64,000 bases of DNA from assembly GCA_006384855.1 (NCBI GenBank), contig VCJN01002282.1, positions 24,637-88,636 on the forward strand, written 5' to 3'. Below the pieces are notes generated by a model. It was not told the DNA's origin. It did no database searches and worked only from the letters and a program-made list of their open reading frames with translations. The position numbers and the translations under genes were made by a program. Source of the DNA: Tetraselmis striata (lineage: Eukaryota > Chlorophyta > Chlorodendrophyceae > Chlorodendrales > Chlorodendraceae). Positions 1 to 25,600 of this stretch are shown here, piece after piece. Positions within the stretch are counted from its first letter, which is position 1. Each line of letters opens with the position of its first letter.

Positions 1-835
1 CCATCAACAAGTACTTCCGCGACCACCAGCGCCAGCCTGTCGCCCTCGGCGAAATGGTGGCCGACGCGCGCCGCGGCGTGGCCATCCAGCAGGAGCGTGC
101 GTCTAGCGGAGGAAGACGTCCGCGTCGCCCTGCCCGCGCCCGTTGCGGCTGACATCCTGGACACCGCGATTAAATCTCGATGAACATTGTGTGGGAACCC
201 GCTAATATTGCGGACATCCGCGCTTTCAGAGCCGCGCTCGCGACGATTACGTGAGTCGTACGTCTTCGTATGCCGCGCGGAATCCGGAATTAGCTGCGAG
301 ACCGGTGATTTAGTGGTCGACCGACCATCCGGAAGCATTTTGTTGTACGTCCGCAAACAGAAAGGCGACCAGCGTACTAGGGTTTCCGCTAAGCCCCTGA
401 TGGCCCATGGCCGCCGTTCCGGACTTCGCTGACCTGCAAGACAAGTAAACCATCAGTCGCGACGCAGCGCCAGCCCGCCGCCCAAGTTTTGGAGCATCTC
501 CCCGCTGGAGTCTTCCGCCACTTGGTCGGTTTCAACCACTCTCACCGAGTGGTTGCGGGAAGCCTACCTGGCGGCAGGCGCCCAACCGCCCACCAGTTTC
601 AAATGGACATCGCACAGTTTACGCAAGGGCGCCGCCTCCGCAGCAGGCTGCGTCGGCGTCCCCTTGCCGGCCATCAGACACATGGGCGACTAGTTGAAGA
701 ACAACGACGTGGTCACATGCCGGGAAGTACATCGACCCGACCATGCGCCCGACTCCCGCGGCCTGGAGGTTCTTCGGCTGGCTCGTCCCCGTCCGGCCGG
801 TGGACTAAGCTACCTGTGCTAGCCTTTGGCTTTCG
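1..835 (+). pseudogene. Decayed tyrosine recombinase (3' part)
   Basis: Broken remains of a tyrosine recombinase related to the ones at 4284 and 12174. The pieces lie in shifting frames. Positions 3-100 match the end of the core-binding domain (SAINKYF-type helix). Positions 102-186 match the linker. Positions about 225-400 match the first arginine and beta-strand region, with an 'LLYVRKQKGDQR' stretch. Positions about 510-790 carry the catalytic C-terminus, with 'TSHSLRKGAA' around 603-635 followed by remnants of the IRHMGD and YIDP segments. Order and spacing agree with the intact copy, but frameshifts and stops break it, so it cannot make an enzyme. The 5' part lies outside the window. It is too diverged to be a recent copy of the other two elements. 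Confidence 0.75.
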
Positions 836-840
836 TCTCT

Positions 841-1165
841 GGCAAACAGTGCCTCCCTGGGTAAATGGTCAGATGTAGTCATCTAGAGGTTTACAATACA
901 GTAGCTATGTTGTACTTCGCACGACCCCCGAGGTCGGCGCACGGACTAAGGCCTGCCGGCCCGCACCAGCGCCACGACCTGAGGGATCCACCCTCGAGCA
1001 CCGGCACTCTCTGCTTTGCGCTCGCCTCAACCGGCTCGTGCACCCACCCACCCTCAGCCATCTTTTTGCGCTAGGAGACACCCATGCCAAGCCTGTGGTT
1101 CTTGTCGTAGCCTTCAATGTAAGTGAGCTGAAATTCTTTGGCAAACAGTGCCTCCCTGGGTAAAT
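841..1165 (+). repeat. 3' end of decayed recombinase element (B1-A2-B2 layout)
   Basis: A perfect 26-bp direct repeat occurs at 841-866 and 1140-1165, both starting GGCAAACAG and ending GTAAAT, just after the decayed recombinase. The interval 867-1139 would be the A2 repeat; its partner A1 is off the left edge. The element at 11790-14990 has the same arrangement. Its B repeats differ in the middle but also start GGCAAA and end AAAT. The element therefore appears to end at 1165. Confidence 0.6.
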
Positions 1166-2148: not shown

Positions 2149-2335
2149 TGATCTAAACTAGTTTATGGGGTTTCCTCCCTTGACCTAACCGGTTTTCGGC
2201 TACAAGTGCTGCTCAGTGGTACGGGAACTAGGCACTTGTCGTTGCGCCCCTTTTGGGTGCAGCACGGGTAGACATAAAAGCAGCCAGAACAACTGAGCCT
2301 GCCATCTTCCAGCTTTCGCTGCGTTACACGCAGCG
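2149..2335 (+). repeat. A1 repeat of nested recombinase element
   Basis: This 187-bp block matches, in opposite orientation and with scattered differences, both 187-bp A repeats of the element at 11790-14990. It begins TGATCTAAACTAG and ends with the small palindrome GCTGCGTTACACGCAGC. It marks the 5' end of the nested element. No matching B1-A2-B2 end is found near 5720, so the 3' end has been lost. Confidence 0.7.
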
Positions 2336-2448
2336 ATGTTAAAACTGTCTCGTGACATGTTGCGAGCAAGGTCACTCCAGGTTATTCAAGACCACACCCG
2401 GCTCACCACCCGTGTGTGATATTCTCATCCGTACGTCCGTGCGTTACC

Positions 2449-3336
2449 ATGTCAGATGGAGAAGAACACGTCGTTGAGCCGACGCTCGAATCGCTGCACG
2501 CAGACGTGAAGGCCCAGTCTACATTGTTGCGAGAGCTTGCAACAGCGTTGGCCCAATTGACGGCTCGTGCCCGTGTTGTTGATGGAGACGGGGCACATGG
2601 CTCCGGTTCCGGGCAGCGCATTGCGGGACAACCGACAGGCAGCGGGGGAGCCGCAGTGCGCCCCGACTTGCTAGAGCTAGCCCAGAGCGGCCGTTTCGGA
2701 GCGAAATCCGTGAGTGACGAGGATGACTACCTCGCGGTGCCAGAGCTACTGCAACGAGCAGAGTCTGGTTACGAGGCCGCTCGACCGGTCAGCCGAGTGC
2801 ATGGACTCTTCCCCCTGAGCACCGACCTAACGAACGAGTACCGCAAGCATGATGACCGGCGTCTGCCGGCCCATGAGGAGTATCTTTGGATGTCGTGTTT
2901 CGGCGCCCACATGGCCGCCCTTTTCGTAGCTCTCGACGAGCTGCTGCCCTACGTCCCTGCTGCAAATCAAGACTTCACCCCCTACCTCGCACGAGCTCGG
3001 AATCACGCCGAAGCCATCGACACGGCGTTTCGCTTTCGTTTGGTCTTCTTACGGAGGCTTAATGAGGTCAAGCGTGGGCACGGTGATTAAGGTGTTATGG
3101 ACGTGCTGCGAGCCCATCATTTCCAGCCTGCGGCAGAGCATCTGGGTTCTGCGATTTTTGGGGACCTCATGAGGGACTACGAGCGTCGCGTCTTCGAGGC
3201 GACAGTTGCCAGCAGTGCTAAAGCAAATGCTACTGCTGCACCTTCTTCCCATCCACCACAGTGGCTACTGGCTCCATGTTCCGTGGGTGCGTTAAGGAGT
3301 ACAGGCAGCGGGGTCTCATGCAGTCCTTGCAGGTAA
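2449..3336 (+). pseudogene. Gag-like ORF1 with an in-frame stop
   Basis: The ATG at 2449 opens a protein closely matching the intact gag-like ORF at 13836-14690. It has an acidic start (MSDGEE), a short predicted coiled coil, a low-complexity Gly/Ser linker and a conserved helical region containing 'YLWMSCFGAHMAALF'. At 3088-3090 a TAA replaces the CAA Gln of the other copy, a single C-to-T change, and homology resumes immediately in the same frame to about 3235. After that the RG-rich tail of the intact copy is replaced by unrelated sequence. The protein is therefore truncated and probably non-functional. The gag role is inferred from position ahead of the recombinase; no zinc knuckle is visible. 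Confidence 0.65.
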
Positions 3337-4205
3337 CCACACCCCTGACGTACTTGCCTTTGAGCTAGCGGGGCGCTGGCAATCGAACTTAATCGTAACC
3401 GTTCTCGTCTCAAGGAACGCCAAGGTGTCTGTGACTGCCTCTAGCAGGAACGCTGTGCAGTCTTGCGAAAGCCCACGGTCGTGCCGGGTGCCGGCGAGGC
3501 ACACCATCTTGATATCGGTGTCAGCAGGCAGGGAGGGGGTGGTAGTCGGGGGCGTGGGCCTCGATTGCCTCATTCAGCATGTCCGTAGAGTTCTTGTCGC
3601 CCCATTCCTGAGCGCCTAGCTTTATCCATACGTTCCGCACTGCGGTCCTGCCGTCAACGGAAATGCTGACGCACGCCGCCAGTGACGCCAGGAGGGACAT
3701 ACTGGTGCTGCCTGGTGTGGGCGGTGGGTGCTCGTGGTGGTGGGATAGAGTGGAGTGATATCGGATATATGTATGGAAGGCAACGAGTGGGAAGATGGCA
3801 GACGAGATGTTGGTGGCTGTCCTACGTAGCTCCCCGCCCAGGCCCGGCGCAAGGCTCGCGGGCGATATATAAAAGGCAGCCCGCAGGGTACCGGTAAAAA
3901 CCGTTTGAAACCCGAAACATACTGTACGGGTCGCACTAGGACAGTTGACTAGTTCTTGAAACGCCATAAACAGAGCTTAGAGGATGGATCGCGGCGGTTT
4001 TCTCCCCATCAGCCGCTACTGTACCGTACCGGCATCGAGTTAGCTGCGCCGGCGCTGTCGCCTACGACATCGGGGGCATCGACGAAAACTGCTGTTCAAA
4101 GTACTATTAGACTATAAGTTTTTTTTTTCCGGAAAAGGAAGATTCCCCCCCCCCCCCCCCTTTTCCGAGCAAAATCGCCACCAAAGACAACGGATAAAAT
4201 CTTCC
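3237..4205 (-). other. Extra ~970-bp block between ORF1 and recombinase
   Basis: This block is absent from the sister element at 11790-14990, where only about 220 bp separate the two genes. It holds possible minus-strand coding pieces: a frame from an ATG near 3700 reading 'MSLLASLAACVSISVDGRT', then, after a one-base frame change near 3520, 'ADTDIKMVCLAGTRHDRG' and onward to about 3330. The two pieces read naturally as one polypeptide of unknown family. It could be a captured host gene fragment or an ancestral part of the element lost from the other copy. A T run and a 16-base C run (4145-4160) lie near its right end. Confidence 0.4.
3866..3876 (+). promoter_or_regulatory. TATA-box-like sequence
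   Basis: TATATAAAAGG lies about 410 bp upstream of the recombinase ATG at 4284, on the same strand, within the extra block. It is a good consensus TATA box but there is no supporting evidence of a start site. Confidence 0.25.
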
Positions 4206-4283
4206 AGGCCTTAGACCTTCCTCGGTGCGGCGCTTCTTACAACTACAACCGAGTGCGGCTCAACCATCCGCACACATGCACAT

Positions 4284-5722
4284 ATGGCGGCTCAACCAAC
4301 CGCTTCTCGTACCATCTCATCGATGCGTCAGTCGATTGTCACACTTCGTGTTACAACTGGTTCGCAACGACCAAGCATCGCGCGTGTACGTTACGCGCGT
4401 GACAGGCGCTACAAGCGTGAAGGGCGCGCGGGGCGGCCCTCTTACCTGAACCTAGCCCCGCAAACCCGTACTGATGTTGCTGCGAGCCCGTCCAGGAACT
4501 ACCGACCAACCGCCGGGAACCTAACCGCTGCTGTCGAGTACTTTGCTAACAGTAGCCGCCCCCATGTTGCTCTGTCGGCAAAGCGCCGCACTTGCGTAAT
4601 TGACGAGCCCGAAGCTGTCGCCCCTTGGGCTGCTTCACTGCGGTCTCGGCTGCATGACGCGTTCGGCTCAGACGAGTTAGGACAGCGGACACTCGACTTG
4701 CTCTCCAGCTCCCTCACCGCACATACACTCAAGAGTTACGCCGACAGACTCTCCCAGTTCGCGGAGTTCTGCCACGACTCCGAGAACATCCGCCCATTGG
4801 AGGCGACCACTGCTACTGTCGCCGGGGACGCTGCCTGGATTGGTGAGCGGGGGCACATTGGGGCCAAGTCGTTGCAGCCCTACTTGTCCGCAATCAACAC
4901 GTTCTTCGAGCTGCACAACCTCGACCCAATCGCCAAGGACAGCCTGCACCTTACCGCAGCTCGGCGTGGGCTAATGCTACGGCAACGCCGCCTAGAAGCT
5001 GCCCCTTTGCGAGTCCCTGTGCATGTTGATGTCGCCTTCCGCTTCGTCGAGCGTGCAGACTTGATTGTGTCTTCTCCCACCACGGAGTACCAGTACTACT
5101 TCCGAGCCCTCGTGGCCTCGGTTGTCAACTTCATGTTCTTTGCCAAAGGACTTACTGGCGTGTCCTGCCGAGTGCGGGGTGTGCATGTCGACGATTACAA
5201 CATTACCCTCGAGGAGTACCGCGAGAAAGGCCGTGCTAGCCGGCGAGGCCCCGACGACCTGCTGCGGGTGCTGCTCCTTCCAGTGTCAGAGCACCCCCGC
5301 GTTGCACGTCTCCTGCACCACTTCATCGACCACGTGCAGTCTGTCCCCCTGGTTTCTGGTGCCTTGGCCGAGACAAACGTCTGGGCTATCAACCCAAGCG
5401 AGCAGTCCAAATCTTGGACCGCCGCTACAATGTCGGATTGGCTCTCTACAACCGTTCGTCTTGTCTGTGCTGCCCCTCCCGCCGGCACTTCTTGGAGCTC
5501 ACACAGCCTTCGAAAGGGGGCAGCGACTGCCGCTAACTAACGCCATCGGAGCTCCCCTGTCCCACATTCGCTACCAGACGGCTGGGCCACTAACTCTGAC
5601 GTCGTTCTGGACTACATCGACCCCAACGTTCTTCCTTCACCTGGCGCGTGGTTCTTCTTTGGTCACATCGCGCCCCTCCGCCACTTCCAAGTAAAACAAG
5701 ACTCCGTGGCCTTCCCTCATGC
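4284..5722 (+). pseudogene. Tyrosine recombinase, frameshifted near the active site
   Basis: This is a tyrosine recombinase highly similar to the intact one at 12174-13622. The frame is open from the ATG at 4284 through the core-binding domain, the first catalytic arginine segment and 'SHSLRKG'. At about 5537 a 4-base TAAC duplication introduces a stop. A one-base deletion near 5577 would restore the frame for the GGW and YIDP segments, which contain the catalytic tyrosine. As it stands the product ends at 5540 without the nucleophile. Homology to the sister element stops near 5722, where transposase sequence of the surrounding pogo-like element begins. Confidence 0.8.
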
Positions 5723-5724
5723 GC

Positions 5725-6377
5725 CCACTTGGCCATGTTTGGGAGGCTAGTCTTGTCAGCCCCCGAGAAGCCGTCCACGTAGTTGATTGTGTCCACCTTC
5801 TCGCGCACAGCTAAAGAGCCGCGCTTCGATTCCATGGCCTTCTTTCTACCAACCTGACCCCTTGAGGAAGCATGGGGCCCTCCTGCTGGTCCTCGCTCTC
5901 CCCACTGGCGTCCTCCTCTTGTTGCCGCGCTGTCTCACTGGGAGCCGCTGAGTCGCGCTTCTGTTGAAGACAAGGAGACGAGCGAACAGTGTCAGGGCTG
6001 CGCTGCGGTTGGGCGGCGGGATCGCGTCGTGCTTGCGGCTGTGGAGTTTTGAACGCTGCAGGCGAGCTGCTGTCCCGCTGGCTGGGCTGGCCGGCGCCGC
6101 TAGTGACGATAGCGGAGGACTGCGATTCGCGTCGAGGGCTGCGACGAGGAGAGTGATGAATGGGCGTTGGCGAAGGTGCAGAAGCCTTGCCCTTTGCCGC
6201 TCTTGCTAGGCAGAACATGCACAGGTGGCCCATTGGCATATCACTGTACTTCTCGGGAAACTTGGCCTCGTATCCCCCCCGGCACACGTGGTGCAGCATT
6301 GTGGTGCAACCCGCTACACCACACTCCTTTAGCTCAGGCCCGCCGGACTCTCCTCTGGCGGCAACTACGCAGTGCAT
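5725..6377 (-). pseudogene. N-terminal fragment of a pogo-like transposase
   Basis: From the ATG at 6377 the minus strand encodes a Cys/His cluster (residues about 3-58: HC, C-x4-C, HHVC, LCMFCL) that looks like a zinc finger. A Ser/Pro/Gln-rich linker follows. After a frame change near 5865, 'KRGSLAVREKVDTINYV' matches the start of a CENP-B/pogo N-terminal helix-turn-helix. The fragment stops at about 5725 where the nested recombinase element begins. The DDE catalytic domain is absent. Its place inside TA-flanked CAGTG inverted repeats supports the assignment. The frame change could also be a lost intron border. Confidence 0.55.
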
Positions 6378-6557
6378 GCCATAGCAGCAGCGCTGAGCGG
6401 GTTCCCCATGGCGGCGAGGTTTGCGTTGTTATGGTGGCAGCACCGACTGCGCATGCAACGAATATGTGCCGCCAACATTGTGACGGTACAACAGTGAACA
6501 ATAGGGGTGTTCACTATAGGGGTAGTGTCACTGTATTTTACTATTTATGAATATCCC

Positions 6558-6877
6558 CAAGGTACATCCCTTGTCCGCTCGGTTGAGCGGTCGTCTCGTA
6601 CGCGAGAAGTCCTGGGATCGATTCCTGGTCGATGTATTTCGGCAATATCATCCCGGCGTGTCCTGGGTTTACCCGGTTGATGCATTAGCCTTTTTTTCCG
6701 CCCCCGGGACAGGATTGGCACCAGTGAAACCCTTGCAGCGTCTCTACGGGGTTCGGGGTTCGAATGAGGCAATGGTGTACGGGCTATGCCAAACCTTGGG
6801 ACTGCAGTTGGCGCAAGAGATCAGGTGCTGGGCCGGCTTCGGCCGATGTCCCGGGGCGAACTTAACTTTACTTTTAA
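6558..6877 (+). mobile_element. tRNA-derived SINE, long form
   Basis: The head (about 6560-6640) is tRNA-like, with an A-box-like CTCGGTTGAGCGG and a B-box-like GGATCGATTCCTGG. The body ends in the family tail GGCGAACTTAACTTTACTTTTA. Compared with the copy at 8614 it carries about 60 extra bases (about 6688-6748) containing a T run and GTGAAACCCTTGCAGC. A clear target-site duplication was not found; the element abuts the next one at 6880. Confidence 0.7.
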
Positions 6878-6879
6878 TC

Positions 6880-8279
6880 CAGCGAAGCGTCGATTTTTCG
6901 GCGGTGAGCTTTATTGCCGTACGGGTACCCGTATAGTGCAGCGGATCGGGCCTATAGGTGCATGACTAAAACACTTATCTACTGGCATGTACTACTAAGT
7001 ACTATAATCCACCCACCCGCCCACCCACCTACGGTCCTTAATTACACAGCCGTCCGATTACGATCTCACGGTTGGGAGGCTATGAGTACTGGTACTCGCT
7101 ACTCGCTGTTGGTAATGGAAAAAAAACTCGGGTACTTCAAAGCGCTGGCAATGCGAACGCTCGCTGATGGTACTGGTACTCGCTACTCGCTGCTGGAACT
7201 GGTATTGGTACTCGCTACTCGCTGCTGATAATGGAAAAAAAAACTCTGGTACTTCAAAGCGCTGGCAATGGAAACCGCTCGCTGCTGGTACTTCAAAGCG
7301 TTGGCAATGCAATTCATGGAACTGATGGCCAGTGATTCCCCTACCTCTTGGGTGGGTTGAGCGGAGGAAAAGGAGAGCCGCGTCCGAAATCGCCTGGAAT
7401 ACGAGAGAATTGATACCGGTCGCAATACGGTTTTATCACGGATTTTTAGGCGTCCGTCCGTCCGTCCTCCTGTGCTGCGTCTTCGCGTATGAACCGTCAT
7501 ACGTTCGGTGTTTGGTCGTTTGATTTCTAGGCACTGGTCCGACGACGGTAAGGTTCTTAATGGATGCGCGTGTATTCTAGCCCAGGCACGTCATATATTC
7601 GTCTGAAACGCCAAAATAACGCGGTACCGCAGCGCGTTTTTACTGCTGAATCAGCAAGCGAGACTATTCAGCGAATATATTTGCTGTAAAATGATGCTGT
7701 AAAAATGGGTCGCCGCGGTGCGGGGGCAGTCCGCCGACCCGGGGCCCGGCGTCCGTCGACGGACGGGCGACGGTCGAACGACGGCGTCCGGCGTCCGGTG
7801 CCGGTACAGGCGGCGGGCGTGGCGATTCGCGCCGTGCCCGCCCCGTAGACCTGACGACCGGCCCGACCTGCGCGGCCTCGTGCGGGATGCGGGCCGCCTG
7901 TAGGCGGCTTGTACTGTACTGCTGATCTTGCAGTGCTGTTTTTTTTTTTTTTTTTTGGGTAATACAACTTTTAGCGGTGGGTTGGGTACCGGCCTTTTTG
8001 TAATGCACACCAGTAGTCAGCGGCCCGCTTTTACGCGGCTTGCAGATTTAATCTGTTTTACAAAATAAATTACTGACAAATCTAACGCTAAAAGCAGTAT
8101 TACCCGGAAACAACAGTATTACAAGATCAACAGTACAAGCCGGCTAAGAGCCGCCCGCATCCCGCACCAGGCTCAACCCAAGAGGTAGGGGCACCTCCAC
8201 AAATCCCCGGCGCGAAGCGCCGCTTAGTATATATAGAACCACTTATTTTAAAATTTTCTGAAAAATCGACGCATCGCTG
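6880..8279. mobile_element. Inverted-repeat element (about 1.4 kb), no coding capacity
   Basis: The ends are 20-bp inverted repeats with one mismatch: CAGCGAAGCGTCGATTTTTC at 6880-6899 against 8260-8279. Two internal inverted pairs are also present: 7336-7361 with 8168-8190, and 7875-7940 with 8111-8171 (imperfect, about 65 bp). The interior has a tandem repeat (7085-7320), a very GC-rich block (7700-7910) and a 16-base T run near 7940. The open frames in the GC-rich block resemble no known protein. It is probably a non-autonomous DNA transposon or foldback element; the target duplication is not evident. Confidence 0.5.
7085..7320. repeat. Irregular tandem repeat
   Basis: Two modules alternate with small changes: TACTGGTACTCGCTACTCGC (around 7086, 7168 and 7205) and a module with an A run followed by TACTTCAAAGCGCTGGCAAT (around 7133, 7250 and 7288). 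It is non-coding low-order repeat inside the 6880-8279 element. Confidence 0.7.
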
Positions 8280-11690: not shown

Positions 11691-11908
11691 CTCATGACGT
11701 TGAAATCCACATTACAATAGCAGCAGGATACGTGTCCGGACGGACGCCGATGCAGCACTGACTGCGTTAAGTCATCGTTACATTACCGGATTTCAAAGTT
11801 GAGTCTGGTTTTGCCAAAAAGGTCGCGCAGGCTGTTTTACACGGTCAAGAGCCGAAATTGGCAGGATGGTTTAGCGAAAGCGTGGAGGGAAAACGGAGTC
11901 AGGGGGGG

Positions 11909-12095
11909 CGCTGCGTGGAACGCAGCGAAAACTGGAAGATGGCAGGCTCAACTGTTCTGGCTGCTTTTATGTCTACTCGTGCTGCACCCAACAAAGGCGC
12001 AACAACAGTTACTAGTTCCCGTACCACTGCGCAGCACTTGTAGCTACAAAGCGGTTAGGTCAAGGATGGAAACCCCATAAACTAGTTTAGATCAT
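11909..12095 (-). repeat. A2 direct repeat
   Basis: This 187-bp repeat matches 14804-14990 in the same orientation with about one difference seen by eye. One border carries the palindrome CGCTGCGTGGAACGCAGCG, and the other ends TTTAGATCAT. The 27-bp B1 repeat overlaps its last bases (12094-12120) and is repeated at 11790-11816. Confidence 0.85.
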
Positions 12096-12173
12096 TTCAA
12101 AGTTGAGTCTGGTTTTGCCAGTCTTGAGCGAACGTAGAGAGCGGTGGATTGACGGAGAAGGGGTAGCGCCAAG

Positions 12174-13622
12174 TCATGAAGGAGGCACTGGGAAGGCCAC
12201 CGCTGCGGAGTCCTGTTGGACTTGGAAGTGGCGGAGGGGGGCGATGTGTCCAAAGAAGAACCACGCGCCAGGAGAAGGAAGAACGTTGGGGTCGATGTAG
12301 TCCAGAACGACATCAGAGTTAGTGGCCCAACCGCCTTGGTAGCGGATGTGGGACAGTGGCACTCCGATGGCGTTTGCTGCAGAGGCTGCGCCCTTGCGTA
12401 GACTGTGTGAAGTCCAGGAAGTGCCAGCAGGGGGGGCAGCGTTGACTAGGTTGACGGCTGTAGACAGCCAGTCTGACATCGTAGCCGCAGTCCAAGGTTT
12501 CGACTGCTCAGCCACATTGACAGCCCAGAAGTTGGAGGCAGCCAAGCCAACAGAAACCAGGGGAACAGATTGGACGTTGTCGATGAAGTGGTGCAAAAGA
12601 CGTGCCACTCGAGGGTGCTCGGACACCGGAAGGAGAAGTACGCGCAGGTCGTCGGGTCCCCGTCGGCCAGCGCGACCTTTCTCGCGGTACACTTGCAGGG
12701 TGATGTTGTAGTCGTCGACATGCATGTCTCGCACTCGACAGGACACGCCAGTGAGGCCCCTGGCAAAGAACATAAAGTTGACAACCGAGGCCAGGAGGGC
12801 TCGGAAGTTGTGGTGGTACTCTGGGTAGGGAGCAGACACAATCAGCTCGGCCTTTGTGACGAAGCGGTAAGCCACATCCGCAGGCAGAGGGACACGCAAA
12901 GGGGCAGCGTCCAGTCGGCGCTGACGCAGCATCAGCCCACGCCTTGCTGAAGTTAAGTGCATGCTGTCCTTGGCGATTGGGTCGAGGTTGTGCAGCTCGA
13001 AGAACGTGTTGATCGCAGACAGGTAAGGTTGCAGTGACTTAGCGGCGATGTGCCCCCGCTCGCCGATCCAGGCAACGTACCGAACGACAGTCGCAGTAGT
13101 CGCCTCCAGCGGGCTGATGTTCTCGGAGTCGTGGCAGAATTCCGCGAACTGAGACAGCCGGCCGGCATAGCTCTTGAGTGTCTGAGCGCCGAGGGAGCTG
13201 GAGAGTAGGTCGAGCGTCCGCTGGCCCAGCTCGTCTGAGCCGAACGCGTCCTGCAGTCGGGCTCGCAATGAAGCAGCCCAGGGAGCGACAGCTTCGGGCT
13301 CGTCAATTACGTAAGTGCGTTGTTTTACTGACAGAGTTCCACCGGTACGACTACTGCTCGCAAAGTACGCGGCAGCAGCAGTTAGGTTCCCGGCGGTTGG
13401 CCGGTAGCTGCTGGACGGGTTTGTAGTAGCATCGGTACGGGTTTGCGGGGCTAGGTTCAGGTAAGAGGGCCGCCCCGCGCGCCCTTCGCGCTCGTAGCGC
13501 CTGTCTCGCGCGTAACGTACCCGCGCGAAACTTGGTCGTTGCGAACCAGTTGTAACACGTAGTGTAACAACCGACGGACGCAGTGGTGGAATGGTACGGG
13601 AGGCGGTTAGTTGAGCCGCCAT
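12174..13622 (-). CDS. Tyrosine recombinase (YR) of mobile element
   Basis: A 482-aa protein from the first ATG (13622). An upstream open stretch to 13799 has no ATG, and the homologous copy at 4284 begins at the same Met. Residues about 140-235 form a SAM-like core-binding domain ('TLKSYAGRLSQFAEFCHD'). Residues about 260-460 form the catalytic domain with all expected residues: Arg288, Lys315, His406-x-x-Arg409 in 'SHSLRKG', Trp432 in GGWA, and the nucleophile Tyr442 in 'LDYIDP'. It should cut and rejoin DNA through a 3'-phosphotyrosine, integrating circular element DNA. It lies 213 bp downstream of the gag-like ORF. It appears intact, unlike the copies at 1 and 4284. Known DIRS/PAT and Crypton elements carry related enzymes. 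Confidence 0.85.
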   Translation of the reverse strand: MAAQLTASRTIPPLRPSVVTLRVTTGSQRPSFARVRYARDRRYEREGRAGRPSYLNLAPQTRTDATTNPSSSYRPTAGNLTAAAAYFASSSRTGGTLSVKQRTYVIDEPEAVAPWAASLRARLQDAFGSDELGQRTLDLLSSSLGAQTLKSYAGRLSQFAEFCHDSENISPLEATTATVVRYVAWIGERGHIAAKSLQPYLSAINTFFELHNLDPIAKDSMHLTSARRGLMLRQRRLDAAPLRVPLPADVAYRFVTKAELIVSAPYPEYHHNFRALLASVVNFMFFARGLTGVSCRVRDMHVDDYNITLQVYREKGRAGRRGPDDLRVLLLPVSEHPRVARLLHHFIDNVQSVPLVSVGLAASNFWAVNVAEQSKPWTAATMSDWLSTAVNLVNAAPPAGTSWTSHSLRKGAASAANAIGVPLSHIRYQGGWATNSDVVLDYIDPNVLPSPGAWFFFGHIAPLRHFQVQQDSAAVAFPVPPS

Positions 13623-13835
13623 GTGCAGGTGTGCGGATGGTTGAGCCGCACTCGGCTGTAGCTGTGAGAAGCGCCGCACCGAGGAAGGTCTAAAGGAAGT
13701 CTGTAAGGTGGGGGGGTCAGGTCCTGACACAGGGCGCTCATCCCGCCGTTGAGCTGCAAGGGTGCGTCTTGCGGCGGTCACCGAAAGGTGGCCTCGCAAG
13801 GCTCCTGCAGCTCCGACGAAAGGCGCCCCACACCG

Positions 13836-14690
13836 TCACTTGTGCTCACCTTCGCGGCCACGTCCACGTCCGCCGCCACGTCCTCGCCCACGCCCGCGAC
13901 ATGCAGCTGCAGCCGCTACTCGAGAAGTAGCGGTCGCCTTGGCGCTGCTGGCAACGGTCGCTTCGAAGACACGACGCTCGTAGTCCCTCATGAGGTCCCC
14001 AAAAATCGCAGAACCCAGATGCTCCGAAGCAGGCTGGAAATGCTGAGCTCGCAGCACGTCCAGAACACCTTGGTCACCGTGCACACGCTTGATCTCATTT
14101 AGCTTCCGCAGGAAGGCTAGACGAAAACGAAACGCCTTGTCGATGGCCTCGGCGTAATTCCGAGCTCTCGCGAGGTAGGGGGTGAAGTCCTGGTTGGTGG
14201 CGGGGACGTACGGTAGCAGCTCGTCGAGCGCCACGAAAAGGGCGGCCATGTGGGCCCCGAAACACGACATCCACAAGTACTCCTCCTGGGCCGGCAGACG
14301 CCGGTCATCCTGCTTGAGGTACTCGTTCGTTAGGTCGGTGCTCAAAGGGAAAAGTCCAGGCACTCGGCTGACCGGTCGAACGGCCTCGTAACCATACTCT
14401 GCTCTCTGCAGTAGCTCTGGCACCGCGAGGTAATCATCCTCGGCACTCACGGATTTTGCTCCGACACGGCCGCTCTGGGCTAGCTCTAGCAAGTCGGGGC
14501 GCTCTGCGGCTCCCCCGCTGCCTGTCGGCTGTCCCGCGAAGCGCTGCCCTGAGCCGGAGCCATGTGCCCCTTCTCCATCAACAACGCGATCACGAGCCGT
14601 CAATTGTGCCACAGCTGTAGCCAGCGCACGCACATCTGCTTGCAACGACTCCAGCGTCGGCTCGGCGACGGGTTCTTCTCCATCTGGCAT
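13836..14690 (-). CDS. Gag-like ORF1 of recombinase element
   Basis: A 284-aa protein. The ATG at 14690 starts an acidic tail, then a short amphipathic helix (residues about 10-30, 'TLESLQADVRALATAVAQL'), a Gly/Ser linker, a conserved mostly helical domain (about 65-235) and an Arg/Gly-rich C-terminus (about 255-282) suited to nucleic-acid binding. No CCHC knuckle, protease or reverse transcriptase motif is present. It has the size and position of a retroelement gag, placed between repeat A1 and the recombinase. The role in packaging or binding element nucleic acid is inferred. The homologue at 2449-3336 carries a nonsense mutation. Confidence 0.6.
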   Translation of the reverse strand: MPDGEEPVAEPTLESLQADVRALATAVAQLTARDRVVDGEGAHGSGSGQRFAGQPTGSGGAAERPDLLELAQSGRVGAKSVSAEDDYLAVPELLQRAEYGYEAVRPVSRVPGLFPLSTDLTNEYLKQDDRRLPAQEEYLWMSCFGAHMAALFVALDELLPYVPATNQDFTPYLARARNYAEAIDKAFRFRLAFLRKLNEIKRVHGDQGVLDVLRAQHFQPASEHLGSAIFGDLMRDYERRVFEATVASSAKATATSRVAAAAACRGRGRGRGGGRGRGREGEHK

Positions 14691-14803
14691 GGTAACGCAC
14701 GGACGTACGGACGAGAATATCACACTCGGGTGGCGAGCCGGGTGTGGTCTTGAACAACCTGGGGTGACCTTGCTCGCAACTGGTTACGAGACAGTTTTTA
14801 CAT

Positions 14804-14990
14804 CGCTGCGTGGAACGCAGCGAAAACTGGAAGATGGCAGGCTCAGCTGTTCTGGCTGCTTTTATGTCTACTCGTGCTGCACCCAACAAAGGCGCAACAA
14901 CAGTTACTAGTTCCCGTACCACTGCGCAGCACTTGTAGCTACAAAGCGGTTAGGTCAAGGATGGAAACCCCATAAACTAGTTTAGATCAT
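14804..14990 (-). repeat. A1 direct repeat (5' end of element)
   Basis: This is the 187-bp partner of 11909-12095 and the outer 5' end of the recombinase element. Just inside it, 14691-14803 is the likely 5' leader of ORF1. The start-proximal part contains TTTATGTCTACTC and may hold the promoter, but no clear TATA box is seen. Confidence 0.8.
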
Positions 14991-15732
14991 ACTTATCGAT
15001 GGAAATCCACGCGGGTCGACCCTGTGCATTTCAGGTTTGATCAACACACCAAGGCGCCCAGAAGCGGCTTACCGGTACTGGTGTGAATTACAAAAAGGGC
15101 AGTTCCCCTTTTGTACGACCTCGTGTAAGATTGTTCTGCGGAATATACTATTCAGAAAGTACGGGTAACACAATACGAAGGGCGGCAAAACACGGCTACA
15201 GGGCAGGCTCGGCCTGCCGTTATTTCAAGTTAGATTGCCACCCACGCGCCAAAATCCTTAGTACGAGGTAATATAGACACTGTTGGTCGATTTCCCAGTC
15301 GTGCAATCTTGGGTAAACTGGGCGGCGGGGACGGCGGCGGACATCGTCATCACGAGCGACAAAATGACAGCTGCAAGAACTGGTACTGTACCTGTAGCGA
15401 CTAAGCCCGTCGTGCTCTCTCATAAGCACTCAGCTGACCCCGGTAGCCAGCAAGCCCCCGCGGCTGAGGGCTTACCGCCTGCTCGGTAGTTGACGTATTA
15501 CGGTAGCAGACAACGTTACGGATGCGGTAGACAGACCTGGCACGGAGTGGTCTTCACGTACTGCTGACGCGGCCGGAGGGGAGATGCCGGAGGAGCTCCA
15601 CGAATATCAGGCCTACCAGCCGCAGCATTAACTACTGTGGGATACGAGAAAAATACGCGTGTACGAACGGTGCTGTCGTCATCGCGGGGGTTCGTCGCCG
15701 CAGGTGGCGGTGGAGCCACAGCAGATGACACT
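14991..15732 (+). other. Spacer and probable 5' region of the RING-CH gene
   Basis: No gene or recognisable repeat was found. The frame of the RING-CH protein is open from about 15630, after a TAA, but the first ATG is at 15733. The transcript start probably lies in this stretch; no convincing TATA box was seen. Confidence 0.4.
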
Positions 15733-18700
15733 ATGACAGCACCCGGCCACTGCCCCCGTGGCGCTGAGACACTGCTGGATGATGTCAGCCAGACGCGCAT
15801 TGCGGCGGACGTCGATGCTGAGCTGCCTGGAACCGCCCAGCTGGACGCCAGCCGTGAGCAACCGGCTACAACAGCAGCACAACCTGGAGGCGGGCACGAT
15901 GATGTCGGTCATTTTCAGCATGTTGCTGCTAGTCGTACTTTTTATTGCGGCATGGTGAATCATAGTACACGTACTAGTACATCCGTATCGGTGCCACCCT
16001 CAGCAACAGCAACGATAACCACCGCAACACCGACGACATGTTCACCGGCTGCGAGTGGGAGTGCCAGTACTAGTAAGGCCAGCCGGGACGCCTGTGCTAC
16101 CGACGTGGATGATGCCTGCAGAATTTCAGGCAAGGATGGCGGCAGCCAGTCGGTGGAGCTGGCCGAGTGCCGGATATGTATGGACGAGGAGGTCCAGGAC
16201 AGCCTGGTGCGGGCCTGCGCATGCTCAGGCAGCCTCACCTGGGCGCACACCAGCTGTCTGGAGAAATGGATCATGGAGCGCGGCGGTGCTGTCACCTGCG
16301 AGATATGCAAGCAACCTTACAGAGTATGCTACGCCCCCGCGGGAAGCCCCTGGGCTCTATCGCTGCCCCCCCCCCCCCCCCCCCCCCCCGCCCTGTCGCT
16401 CTTGCGCAGCATTGCTACTCAGAATCAGAAGTATGCCGGTAGAAGGGGTGCATGTTCACGCTGCATTTTAAGACCCAGCTATGAGCACTACCCGTATGTA
16501 GTACTCGTACCGCACAGGTATAATGGGTCGATATTTTGACAAGTCTGGCGGTACGAATCAAATGCGCCCAATATGCTGATCATAAATTCCTACATCACCA
16601 CTTGACGCTCGTACGCGCGGAGCGTGCGAGTACTGATATAGTCGCTACTCATTTTTCAGCACCGTCAAAAAATCTGTTAAAAGTAAAAGTAAAGTTCGCG
16701 CCGGGACATCGGCCGAAGCCGCCCCAACAATTGACCTCGTGCGCCAACTGCAGTCGTAGGTCTGGCATAGCCCATAGACCATTGCCTCATTCGAACCCCG
16801 AAGGACTAATGCATCAACCGGGTAAACCCGGGACACGCCGGGCCGATATTGCCGAAATACATCAGCCAGGAATCGAACCCGGGTCTCTCGCATACGAGAC
16901 GACCGCTGCTCTACCGAGCGGACAAGGGATGTACCTTGTCATATCTGTTATCAGCTACAGCAGGGTGCCGGTACAGATATATACGGCGTGAACTCTTTAA
17001 AAAATCGGCGCTCGGAAAGGTGCCGATCGGAGTTGGATGTCATCATCCTCTAGCAACTAAGGCTCGCAGGACATCGTGTCGTTTTTAGACAACCCCAATG
17101 CAAAAAAATGGTTTTCCTACAACCCTAATACAATGGCCTACCGCGCGACTCGCATCCGATAAAATGCGATATAATTGTTGTGTACATGTACTCGCCCCGC
17201 GCGGGAGGATTTTCCCTGCGTAGGGGGCCGTTAGGTTCAGCGCAATAGCAGAATATGAGAGTATTGATGGCCAGCCCCACAACATACCCTGGACGATGCT
17301 CTAGTAGGTGACCATATGGATCCACCCGCTGACTCGGGGCTGCACCCCTGCGCAGTACGGGCTGAAGCCCGGGTGTATCAAAGTGAAAGCGGACATCGGT
17401 TGTAGTTGAGCCGGTTTTGGAGCCGACCTTGTAGTTTTGGCCGTTTTGCGGGAATTGCTCGCTTGCTTGCATCCTGTCGCGGCGGGAAGCGCGCAGATTT
17501 GTGAATGTGTTCCACGATGTTAGACCTAACTCATGGCATGCAGCCGTACACATAGAACGCATATACGTGCTAAACACAAATCACGTCCTCGTGACATTGG
17601 GTTATCAAATCCATTACAAGTCTTGAACAATGACACGTACACATATGGCTCTTAATGCAAGAGGACAACAAACGCCATTCAGGGCTGCCCCCACGCATGT
17701 CTTGATGTCATGCTCACGTGTAGCACATGGAAGGGCGCGGCCGGAAACGAAGGCGAGGGCTGATTATGGGCGCCCAATTATACAATTAGAACCACCCAAT
17801 TTAACAAGGGGGCAAGACTTTTGTGGGCAGGTGTATACCGGTCCGAACCGGGCCGAGGATCACACCACAGGAGCTGTACGAGGTACTGTCCGAACACCCC
17901 TCTTGCTCCCGAGGAGAGGGCGGACCGGAAAATCTGGGTACAGATCCAAGGACAGGAGCCATGAGAGCCTAATTATCCGCACTTGAGGCTTGATGTAGGA
18001 CAATCTTGGGAATTGATGATCGCATCACCGTAAGCTACAAATCGCACTTGCACCAATCATAGCAAAACCCGTGAAATCTTGAAATTTGTGCCTCAAGTGC
18101 GAGTCACGCCCCGGTATTGCCATGCAGGTTCGCCACCTTAGCTCCGAAACCAAAAATATACGACTATTGAGCGCGTGCTCGTACTCGTACGAGGTATATG
18201 CCCCGTACAGGGTACGGAAGTCGTAGTCGTACTAGGCTGTTGTCAGCTAGTGTATACTCAACTAGCATGCAGCATCATGACAGGAAGTAATGAAAAACCG
18301 CAGTCGTGGCGCAGCAGTCGCTAGACAGCCCGGAATGATGAACAAACAGGTTCAGTGTCGATCGGACGTTTGCACGATGCTCGCCCTGGTTGCAGACGGT
18401 AAAACCCGACTTTGTACACTTGTATGAATACGGGGTATGGTACTACGGTACGGTTGTACACTTGCCCCCAGTACCAGCCTGCTGTAGGTGGAGATTCTTT
18501 AAAACAGTCGCATGTACCAGGATATAAATAGTAGTCGCTATCGCTACAATATCTGGAACGGTCCTGCTGGAGGCGTTGATATTGGCAGCCAACGTGGCAA
18601 CAAGAACACTGCGAATAAGAACCTGCCCTGCCTGTTTGAGTTCAAATGTAAACGGAGCTTTCGCGGACCTGTAGCGATTGCTCCTATAGGTTGCATGCAA

Positions 18701-22633: not shown

Positions 22634-25600
22634 TCAGCAGATGGCGCAGCAGTCCTTCTGGCTCTCTTTCAGCACCTGCTGCGTGGAGTCCGGCAGGAAG
22701 CTGCCCTCCGCGGCCTCCCAGGCACGCACCTCGCCTGCAGCAGCGGCGCGCACGGCGCCCTCGTCAGTGCGACGCCGCAAAGGGAGTGAAAACACATGTC
22801 ATGGCTGAGCGCCGGTGCCTGGTTGCCAGTGGCTTCCCATTCTTCGCCAGCGCCAACGTTCCGTTGTGACTACGCTGCATGTTGCTTCCCTACTCGCTAT
22901 ATTTGAGTCAAGGGTTGCTAAGTATGCCCCTAATCTGTGAACAGCTACAAGGTAACATGGTGCCGGCGCACCTATATTGTTAATTAACCCTTCTCATATA
23001 GGCCTTAAATTGGGCTTGCGTGCATTCGATAGGAACATTCGCTATAGTGACCCAAGTATACCGAAGTGTACACACGTATACCTAAGTGATGTACATAGGT
23101 AACCAGTACCTAAGCAACCTAAGTGTCTATATCCGTAACGTAAGTATACGTGAAAAGTACCGACTACCCAAGTAAACTTAAAAGTACCCGTGCACAAAGG
23201 TAGGACGGAGGGCTAATGGGGGAGGGGAAGGACTGGGTTGAGGTATTCTTGGGGGGTGGCGGGGGGGGGGGGGGGGGGGGGGGGCTCACCCTCTATGGAG
23301 CGCAGCACCTGCACCATATCATTGCACGACGGTCTGCATGCGCCGCACACATACCCCGTCACCTCAGAAGCTCCCATCCAAAGCAGGGCGCGGGGCGCGG
23401 AGCTGGTGGGCAGTAAGCGCCGCGAGGGGGGGGGGGGGGGAGGGAAGGGGGGGGGGGGGGGTTACCGGCGGTCGGGGTCGGTGTGCCAGCCCAGCATCAG
23501 CATCTCCCGCAGCTTGGGCGGCCACGTGCTCGGCATCTGCGGCCGCTTATTCTGCAGCGCGACCGGGGCGGCAAGCGCACAGCGTCAGCAACTTGAGTGG
23601 CCGGTGGCATCACTACACCAATAACAAGTGATCGATGGCGCCGCGCTGCAAATAGCGACAACACCCCTTAAGTGACACCAGCCCCCCCCCCCCCCCCCCT
23701 CCCCTCTGGAAGTGTCATTGGAAAGTGGTGTCATAGAAGGGGCAATGCATTGAATACTACTACTGGGCGCAAAATAACAGGGACAAAGGCACAAATCCGT
23801 GAGAAGGCTGCACATTACATGGAATCGAGTCGCTCCTTGCAGCATGCGGGCTCAACATGATGCACCCTCGGAATAGTTGACCATGCCCCTGGCATGGATG
23901 GGGTGACGTGTGCGCACAAACGGCCAAAAACGCGAACGGCCATGGTGTTGGTGAATCGATTGTATGCGAGATGGCACGCCGCGTTACATGAAACGTACGC
24001 AGTGCACGAGGGTCAGGTAAGTTGTTTATACGCCCTATATATACAGCATGTCGGTCTGTGTGGTGGCTCTCGTACATCACGAGCGCTTGCCCTCGCACGC
24101 TAGCAGCCAACGTATGCGAGTTCAAACGGTCCCTGGTATTTTGATGGGGAAATCGGGACCCCCTGGATAAGGCGGTATTAAAGGGGGTGGTGTCACATGT
24201 AATACAAACATTTCTAGGGTTTTAGGATGTTAAACCTTAAACCCTAAAAACCCTAAACCCGTATGTGGATAATATGTAGGAACGAAAACATGCATGTCAG
24301 TACCACAAGTATCACAAGCATATGTATAAGTGTATAGGTATCCTAAGTATCCCAAGTAACACACGAATGCAAATTATAGTTCAGGCCCGACTCGGGGGAT
24401 GAAAGGGAACAGGTGGTGAACAGGGGGTTGGTACCTGGTACGCGGTGTCGTAAGCGTTCTGCTTCACCCTCTCCAGGTACTCGTCCGTGGTGAGCCCCTC
24501 CTTGGGGTTGCGGTGCATGCGCAGCTGCAGCAGCGCGGCGGCGGCGACATGCGGCGTGTCAGAGGCGGGCGGGCGGCTGCAACGGTAGGGCCAGGGAGGG
24601 CAGGCAGGGGCAGGGGCGGGGGGCGGGGGGGGGCAGGGGGGGGAACTGAGCGGCACCGCTCACCCGGTAGCTGAAGATCTCCCAGATGATTATCGAGACC
24701 GAGAAGACGTCCACCTTTTCGTTGTACTTGTTGTTCTTCAGCACCTCCGGGGCCATGTAGCTGCGGGGCGGCATAAGGGGGGGGGGGGGGGGGGGGGGAT
24801 GAGCACAACGAGAGCAAAACCCCAGACAGCCTACACCAGCCGTCTGTGAGTACACAAGAATACCCAAACAGTATGTGCCAAGCCGTAAGATTTCAAGCGA
24901 GGATTAAAACCCAAAACAAACCCTAGGTTATATCAATTACCCTAAATCCCTGCAATGGCGACTCACGTGAAGGAGCCCGTGCCGCCGGTGAGCTCGTACT
25001 TGTCCGCCAGGTGTCCGTTCTTCTTGGACAGCTTCTTCAGGTCCACGACGCTGCTCAGCCCGAAGTCCGCCAGCTTGGCGTGGCGCGGAGGCTTGGCGGC
25101 TGTTCATGAGCGGGGTGAGCAGTGTCCAAATTGGACAGTCAGAGGTGTCCAATTGGGGCCCCACGGTCGGCATACATAAGTACGAGCGCGTCCAACAACG
25201 TGCAAGTATGGAACGATCGGGAAGCGGAGGGAGGGAGCGTACACCCCCTTGTACGGGTGCAGACAAGACAGTATGACGAGTGTGGGGTACTTCAGACTTT
25301 TGGGGGGGCCACGATAAGTTCGTACTGATTCCGTTTTCAGTCTGTCTGAATTCGGACTGGAAGAGATGGATACTTTCTTGCAAGTAAATTCCTTCATACC
25401 ACGTCGGCACCTGCATTACCTACAATGGCCATACGTATGCTTTTACAGCACTATTATTGAGCTTGAATATGCGGCGATCTACAGTGTTCGAGCCCGTTCG
25501 AAAAGTTCGAAACTCCAAGAGCCGATTGATATTGCATGGAGATCCAAGATGTACGTGCCGGCGCGGCAATGCGAAAGTGTGTTTACATAGAGACTCCGGA

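Follow-up and report, generated by a model that had tools for sequence, protein, structure and literature searches.

The 64,000-nucleotide stretch of DNA analysed here (the window; positions 24,637 to 88,636 of the forward strand of contig VCJN01002282.1 from Tetraselmis striata) carries on its reverse strand a mobile element of about 3.2 kb (11790–14990) that encodes a gag-like protein and a tyrosine recombinase (YR), is bounded by split direct repeats, and contains no reverse transcriptase (RT). We suggest, with a probability of roughly two in three, that it represents a lineage of PAT-like YR retrotransposons that has long existed without RT, supplies its own gag-like protein and YR and obtains RT in trans. 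Judged from sequence, RT was probably lost in a lineage whose relatives carry it, and the elements probably spread by means of RT borrowed from those relatives.

The element reads A1-gag-YR-B1A2-linker-B2. Repeat comparison places the two A repeats, 187 nt each and 99% identical, at 14804–14990 (A1, the 5' end of the element) and 11909–12095 (A2), and the two B repeats, 27 nt each and 100% identical, at 12094–12120 (B1) and 11790–11816 (B2, the 3' end), all on the minus strand. B1 and A2 overlap by two bases and together form an internal copy of a circle-type junction. The 92-nt linker between A2 and B2 (11817–11908) was delimited by comparing the window with other copies, and alignment of the ends fixed the borders of the element at the invariant letters TTTCAAAG (low end, plus strand) and GATCA (high end). 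The initial annotation, made from the window sequence, had described these repeats and two open reading frames (ORFs) in this order, and both the features and their coordinates proved correct. The gag-like ORF extends from its first Met to a UGA stop (13836–14690; open frame from 14783) and the YR frame of 553 codons (12174–13835; first Met at 13622, core at approximately 13286–12231) is contiguous with it in the same reading frame. A single UGA codon (13836–13838), followed by CGG, parts the two, so there is indeed no room for RT or RNase H between them. Neither domain was matched in the window element or in the gag-YR pairs checked, and no methyltransferase (MT) domain was matched in a Pfam search of the window ORFs or in the copies read.

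The YR assignment is supported by an integrase N-terminal SAM-like domain above the Pfam cut-off (E 1.5e-6), by a catalytic domain below it (E 8.7e-4) and by a weak match to Cre in the HxxR region. We take R359, H477, R480, W503 and Y513 of the 553-codon frame to fit the catalytic pattern of the family. For the first ORF, Pfam gave nothing significant, and the name gag is putative, chosen for its position and its Arg/Gly-rich C-terminus. AlphaFold models of the gag-like ORF and the YR (mean pLDDT 38.8 and 31.8, respectively) were too poor for use.

A search of the host genome (224 Mb in 2,903 contigs) for further copies found the 29-nt B1A2 junction 1,050 times (528 + 522) at up to two mismatches, with 100 of these places listed, versus none for the reversed control; the A/B layout is therefore beyond chance. 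The gag search scored 133 of 4,855 candidates and the YR search 80 of 7,830, of which 128 and 64, respectively, are free of stops, fractions that are biased upward because the matches are ordered best first. A genome search with PF00589 returned 7 places only and missed the gag-YR family. The initial annotation had recognized that the reading would fall if other copies held RT between the ORFs, or if the repeats came from unrelated nested insertions. What we found is the opposite. Thirty gag loci, counting the window copy, were compared, and in 29 of them gag passes directly into YR; among the 13 gag-YR pairs in the match lists, 12 are spaced by 39–42 bp. The exceptional locus (L015) is interrupted by other sequence and the thirteenth pair (C1680, with a wide gap) consists of two neighbouring copies; no RT was matched in the portion read of either. 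The far end, with linker, A2, B1 and B2, was present in all 20 of the 30 loci for which it was fetched. In three cases an RT place occurs at a distance of up to 8 kb from a listed gag or YR, and the one that was read (C1567) is a separate RT-bearing element, 29 bp from its RT-less neighbour.

The RT-less layout is old. An older copy of the family lies on the plus strand of the window at 2149–5716 (A1 90% identical, gag 86% and YR 81% at the amino acid level; 83–88% DNA identity to the window element), with an unrelated insert of about 970 bp (3237–4211) between gag and YR. Part of this insert is 87% identical to sequence at L013 and 67% identical to sequence at L070, near the B|A junction of the latter. 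A more distant relative (C1699) shares 72% DNA identity over 2.3 kb, or 41% in gag and 42% in YR at the protein level, and here too YR follows gag with no room for RT. In a YR tree of 11 rows, the 8 RT-less sequences are separated from the 3 RT-bearing ones by a branch with 100/100 support; the tree is unrooted, two of its rows are partial, and all rows come from within this analysis, with no outside sequences.

Both proteins are maintained by purifying selection. We compared 30 copies and counted as inherited any change present in at least 3 of them. Because these copies had been chosen for their similarity in gag, from a best-first list, the gag counts are biased towards selection. In gag, inherited changes are nonsynonymous and synonymous in a ratio (N:S) of 10:41, against a neutral expectation of about 2.3:1, and singletons in a ratio of 58:54. 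In the YR core the inherited ratio is 21:70 against a neutral 2.2:1 or so, and singletons stand at 72:66 plus 3 stops. The predominance of synonymous changes among those inherited indicates that the RT-less family depended on both proteins as it spread.

The two A repeats evolve in concert. Across 22 elements, A1 and A2 differ on average at 2.6 positions within an element and at 5.4 between elements (0 of 100,000 permutations); in C1976, 15 of the 17 differences between A1 and A2 stem from a deletion. Private variants are present in both A copies of C225 (eight alignment columns) and of C350, C1976, C2595 and C1544 (one column each), which indicates that new copies begin with A1 equal to A2, as the internal-template model of YR retrotransposons predicts. 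Recent replication, proposed earlier from the near-identical A repeats, is thus supported. The copies also recombine, because linkage declines with distance: over 105 sites the mean r2 is 0.30 below 25 nt, 0.15 at 700–1,499 nt and 0.19 above 1,500 nt (0 of 2,000 permutations). Such a decay is what copy-choice during reverse transcription would give.

Insertion is precise, with the target neither duplicated nor lost, as expected for integration of a circle by YR. This follows from empty sites of the window copy: the joined flanks, tested over a length of 30 nt only, occur uninterrupted at four places with 1, 2, 2 and 3 mismatches, and the control gave none. Among 21 copies, 20 have no boundary repeat of at least 3 nt and one does. 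The base before the low end is G in 12 and A in 9 of these copies; the base after the high-end GATCA is T in 13, A in 4 and G in 4, and is followed by A in 15 of 21. In the set of 30 gag loci, GATCA is followed by T in 20, A in 6, G in 4 and C in none.

The closest RT-bearing elements share this layout. The left edge of the window (1–1165, plus strand) holds the 3' part of a broken relative (YR, B1A2, linker and B2), whose A1 and RT region lie further left on the same contig (L071). Together they comprise an A1 of 183 bp, pieces of RT, RNase H and MT, and B1A2...B2 in the same order, and the YR is 43%/35% identical to that of the gag-YR element. A less damaged copy of this family (L072) encodes a gag of 355 aa followed by an 849-aa frame and then a YR frame. 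The 849-aa frame looks intact and matches RVT_1 above the cut-off (44.7 versus 29.6 bits), and RNase H and Dam/MT below theirs. More than 40 of the 150 RT places scored lie in an 849-aa open frame, and the junction of this family occurs 257 times. Its B resembles that of the RT-less family in length and ends (TGGCAAA...AAA|TGRTC), and L072 and the RT-less element have an identical 14-nt sequence, AAGTGACGGTGTGG, surrounding the gag stop. The two YRs align with 40% identity over 357 columns at an hhalign probability of 100. The element had been placed halfway between PAT-like elements and Cryptons, with a separate lineage or mobilization in trans as possibilities. Because its YR is homologous to that of RT-bearing elements of the same layout, we class it instead among the PAT-like elements, as a member that lacks RT, rather than as a link to Cryptons; the separate RT-less lineage stands, and mobilization in trans stands as a possibility. 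In a second PAT family (L048 and L049) Dam is matched above the cut-off, and similarity between its YR and that of the gag-YR element is undetectable.

Based on these observations, we suggest the following cycle. Element RNA would be packed with the element's own gag-like protein and copied in trans by RT from related RT-bearing elements. With the internal B1A2 as template, both ends would be restored and a DNA circle closed, which the element's own YR would then recombine into a short target of the purine|T type. On this view the element would live as a parasite on its RT-bearing relatives, yet would still bear the cost of a coat and an integrase of its own. The RNA stage, the supply of RT in trans, the function of gag and the circle are inferred in this model.

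Several points weigh against it. The RNA, the circle and the RT activity are all deduced from DNA sequence alone. The initial annotation proposed looking for a longer relative with the same A/B repeats plus RT; no RT-bearing element with exactly these repeats was found in the part of the genome read. The outer A and B sequences of the RT-bearing family differ from the RT-less ones except in the junction core, so RT in trans would have to act without matching repeats. Homology between the gag-like ORF and the L072 gag was undetected (hhalign probability 3). Gene conversion could produce both the concert of A1 and A2 and the decay of linkage. Finally, recombination at the junction also occurs at the DNA level: at C2200 (54400–64000) A-gag-YR-B units joined at B|A form a tandem array with a spacing of 2,918 bp, in which three A1 ends run straight into the B-YR of the unit that follows; the outer end of the array has the usual form.

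The strongest rival, which we nevertheless consider unlikely, is a YR lineage permanently without RT, whose gag-like protein, YR and split repeats are multiplied in the form of DNA circles. YR would release the element as a circle, by excision or by copying, host replication would multiply the circles and these would reinsert; the split repeats would be footprints of tandem insertion (A-gag-YR-B beside a short A-linker-B) that move as a unit. The lack of RT in every copy examined in full, selection on gag and YR without RT, and the C2200 array, of which the parts read contain three units joined at B|A, all agree with such a DNA transposon, and precise insertion suits a circle of whatever origin. 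However, this explanation requires gene conversion for the private variants common to A1 and A2, leaves the retention of the gag-like gene unexplained, and must accommodate the homology of the element's YR to the YR of a family that has RT and the same repeat layout. The permuted insertions that it predicts (A-linker-BA-gag-YR-B) were absent among the 20 copies read at both ends. If it were true, a repeat layout thought to serve reverse transcription would also work without RT. A milder form would be a chain of three levels, in which the RT-bearing element is followed by the RT-less gag-YR element and this in turn by elements without genes that have its B|A core (L070, L073 and L074).

That split-repeat gag-YR elements represent the ancestral state, to which the RT-bearing family added RT at a later time, is improbable. 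The age of the RT-less layout (the 72% relative), the position of the RT-less rows on one side of the YR tree and the gag stop context common to both families would fit this order of events. However, PAT, Ngaro, Kangaroo, TOC3 and VIPER all have RT as well as split repeats (PMC4157794, PMC6681497), and loss is therefore the simpler story. The tree, unrooted and with 11 rows, also argues little for a gain.

Non-autonomous YR elements are known, and TOC1 is an RT-less passenger with YR-retrotransposon ends. That the gag-YR element likewise arose from an RT-bearing element by internal deletion, is dead and is carried passively, as SIRE or TOC1 are, is very improbable given the stop-free frames in the best-first lists (gag 128/133, YR 64/80), the mostly synonymous inherited changes and the age of the lineage. 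An assembly or nesting artefact, for which nothing was found, is hardly credible, as the same ends recur in 20 of 20 copies on other contigs and empty sites exist.

Borrowing a missing function from a relative is known from BARE-2 and other long terminal repeat (LTR) elements that lack one gene, where gag is supplied in trans. The RT-less lineage resembles them in having some intact genes and one borrowed function; the function missing here is RT. Cryptons are not known to carry gag or split repeats. They share with the gag-YR element a YR without RT and the lack of target duplication, but consist of the YR domain only (PMC4157794), whereas our element has a second ORF and split repeats. PAT-like and TOC3-like elements have the split direct repeats, internal repeats after YR, non-inverted YR and absence of target duplication seen here (PMC4157794); the gag-YR element differs in having no RT, RNase H or methyltransferase and two ORFs in 3.2 kb. 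Ngaro and VIPER are alike in repeat order, in internal repeats downstream of YR and in having no methyltransferase (PMC4157794, PMC8547959, PMC6681497), but they carry the RT and RNase H that our element lacks. The weak Dam/MT match in the nearest RT-bearing relative points to PAT rather than Ngaro. SIRE, the non-autonomous form of VIPER, is also an RT-less passenger with YR-retrotransposon ends; it is described in PMC6681497 as ends only, without genes, whereas the gag-YR family encodes two selected proteins. In the open-access literature we found no description of a gag-plus-YR lineage without RT, even in searches directed at exactly that combination, and this supports novelty only weakly.

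The usual definition of a YR retrotransposon requires both RT and YR, and the lineage described here keeps a selected gag-like gene and YR without RT. Its junctions are about four times as numerous as those of the RT-bearing relative (1,050 versus 257, from different families at the same mismatch limit). Coat, recombinase and repeats, which are required in cis, are thereby set apart from RT, which can be borrowed. With helpers and passengers occurring naturally in one genome, the little-tested circle model of YR retrotransposons would become accessible to experiment.

The UGA between the gag-like and YR frames is present in all 30 gag loci (L009–L038); at L047 a sense codon replaces it, giving a fused frame of 842 aa. 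The common frame and the UGA context, which is shared with L072, suggested read-through into a Gag-YR fusion. We rejected this because the 71 codons from the UGA to the first YR Met are near neutral (inherited N:S 9:5 versus 2.1:1); the following 112 codons are intermediate (17:18). A frame-keeping mini-intron of 45 nt spanning the UGA fits the GT..AG rule, but L020 and L022 have a broken 3' site, and it was rejected as well.

Other candidates for an RT-bearing partner were also discarded. At C69, which has the same B repeat, the Dam match falls in an element that we take to be gypsy-type by its integrase-like motifs. C97 and C199, where the sequence next to B is similar, gave no gag, YR or RT match, and a search with the RVT_1 family was filled by frames of the 1,539-aa type that resemble LTR elements. 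The L072 copy has no B2, and unlike YR-type insertions it lies between direct repeats of about 37 bp (459–495 and 5378–5414); it is perhaps a YR-independent insertion of cDNA. Old elements at L070 (approximately 2046–2440), L073 (4425–4946) and L074 (approximately 140–690), 72–80% alike, share the B|A core of the RT-less family but have a different body with no gag, YR or RT match, and are perhaps gene-less passengers. L070 also holds a gypsy-like element (3907–6999) with a frame that matches a Dam-type methyltransferase.

In the window, an array of TGTGTATACACA-like palindromes (1190–1800) lies just outside B2 of the RT-bearing relative, and an ORF adjoining the gag-YR element (15637–16539) has, by eye, a RING-CH-like zinc finger. 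Beside one element copy, at L038 (1179–1213), there is an array of 4.4 copies of AAAACCCT, which hints at a green alga of the Chlamydomonas group as host, since TTTTAGGG is the telomere unit of Chlamydomonas.

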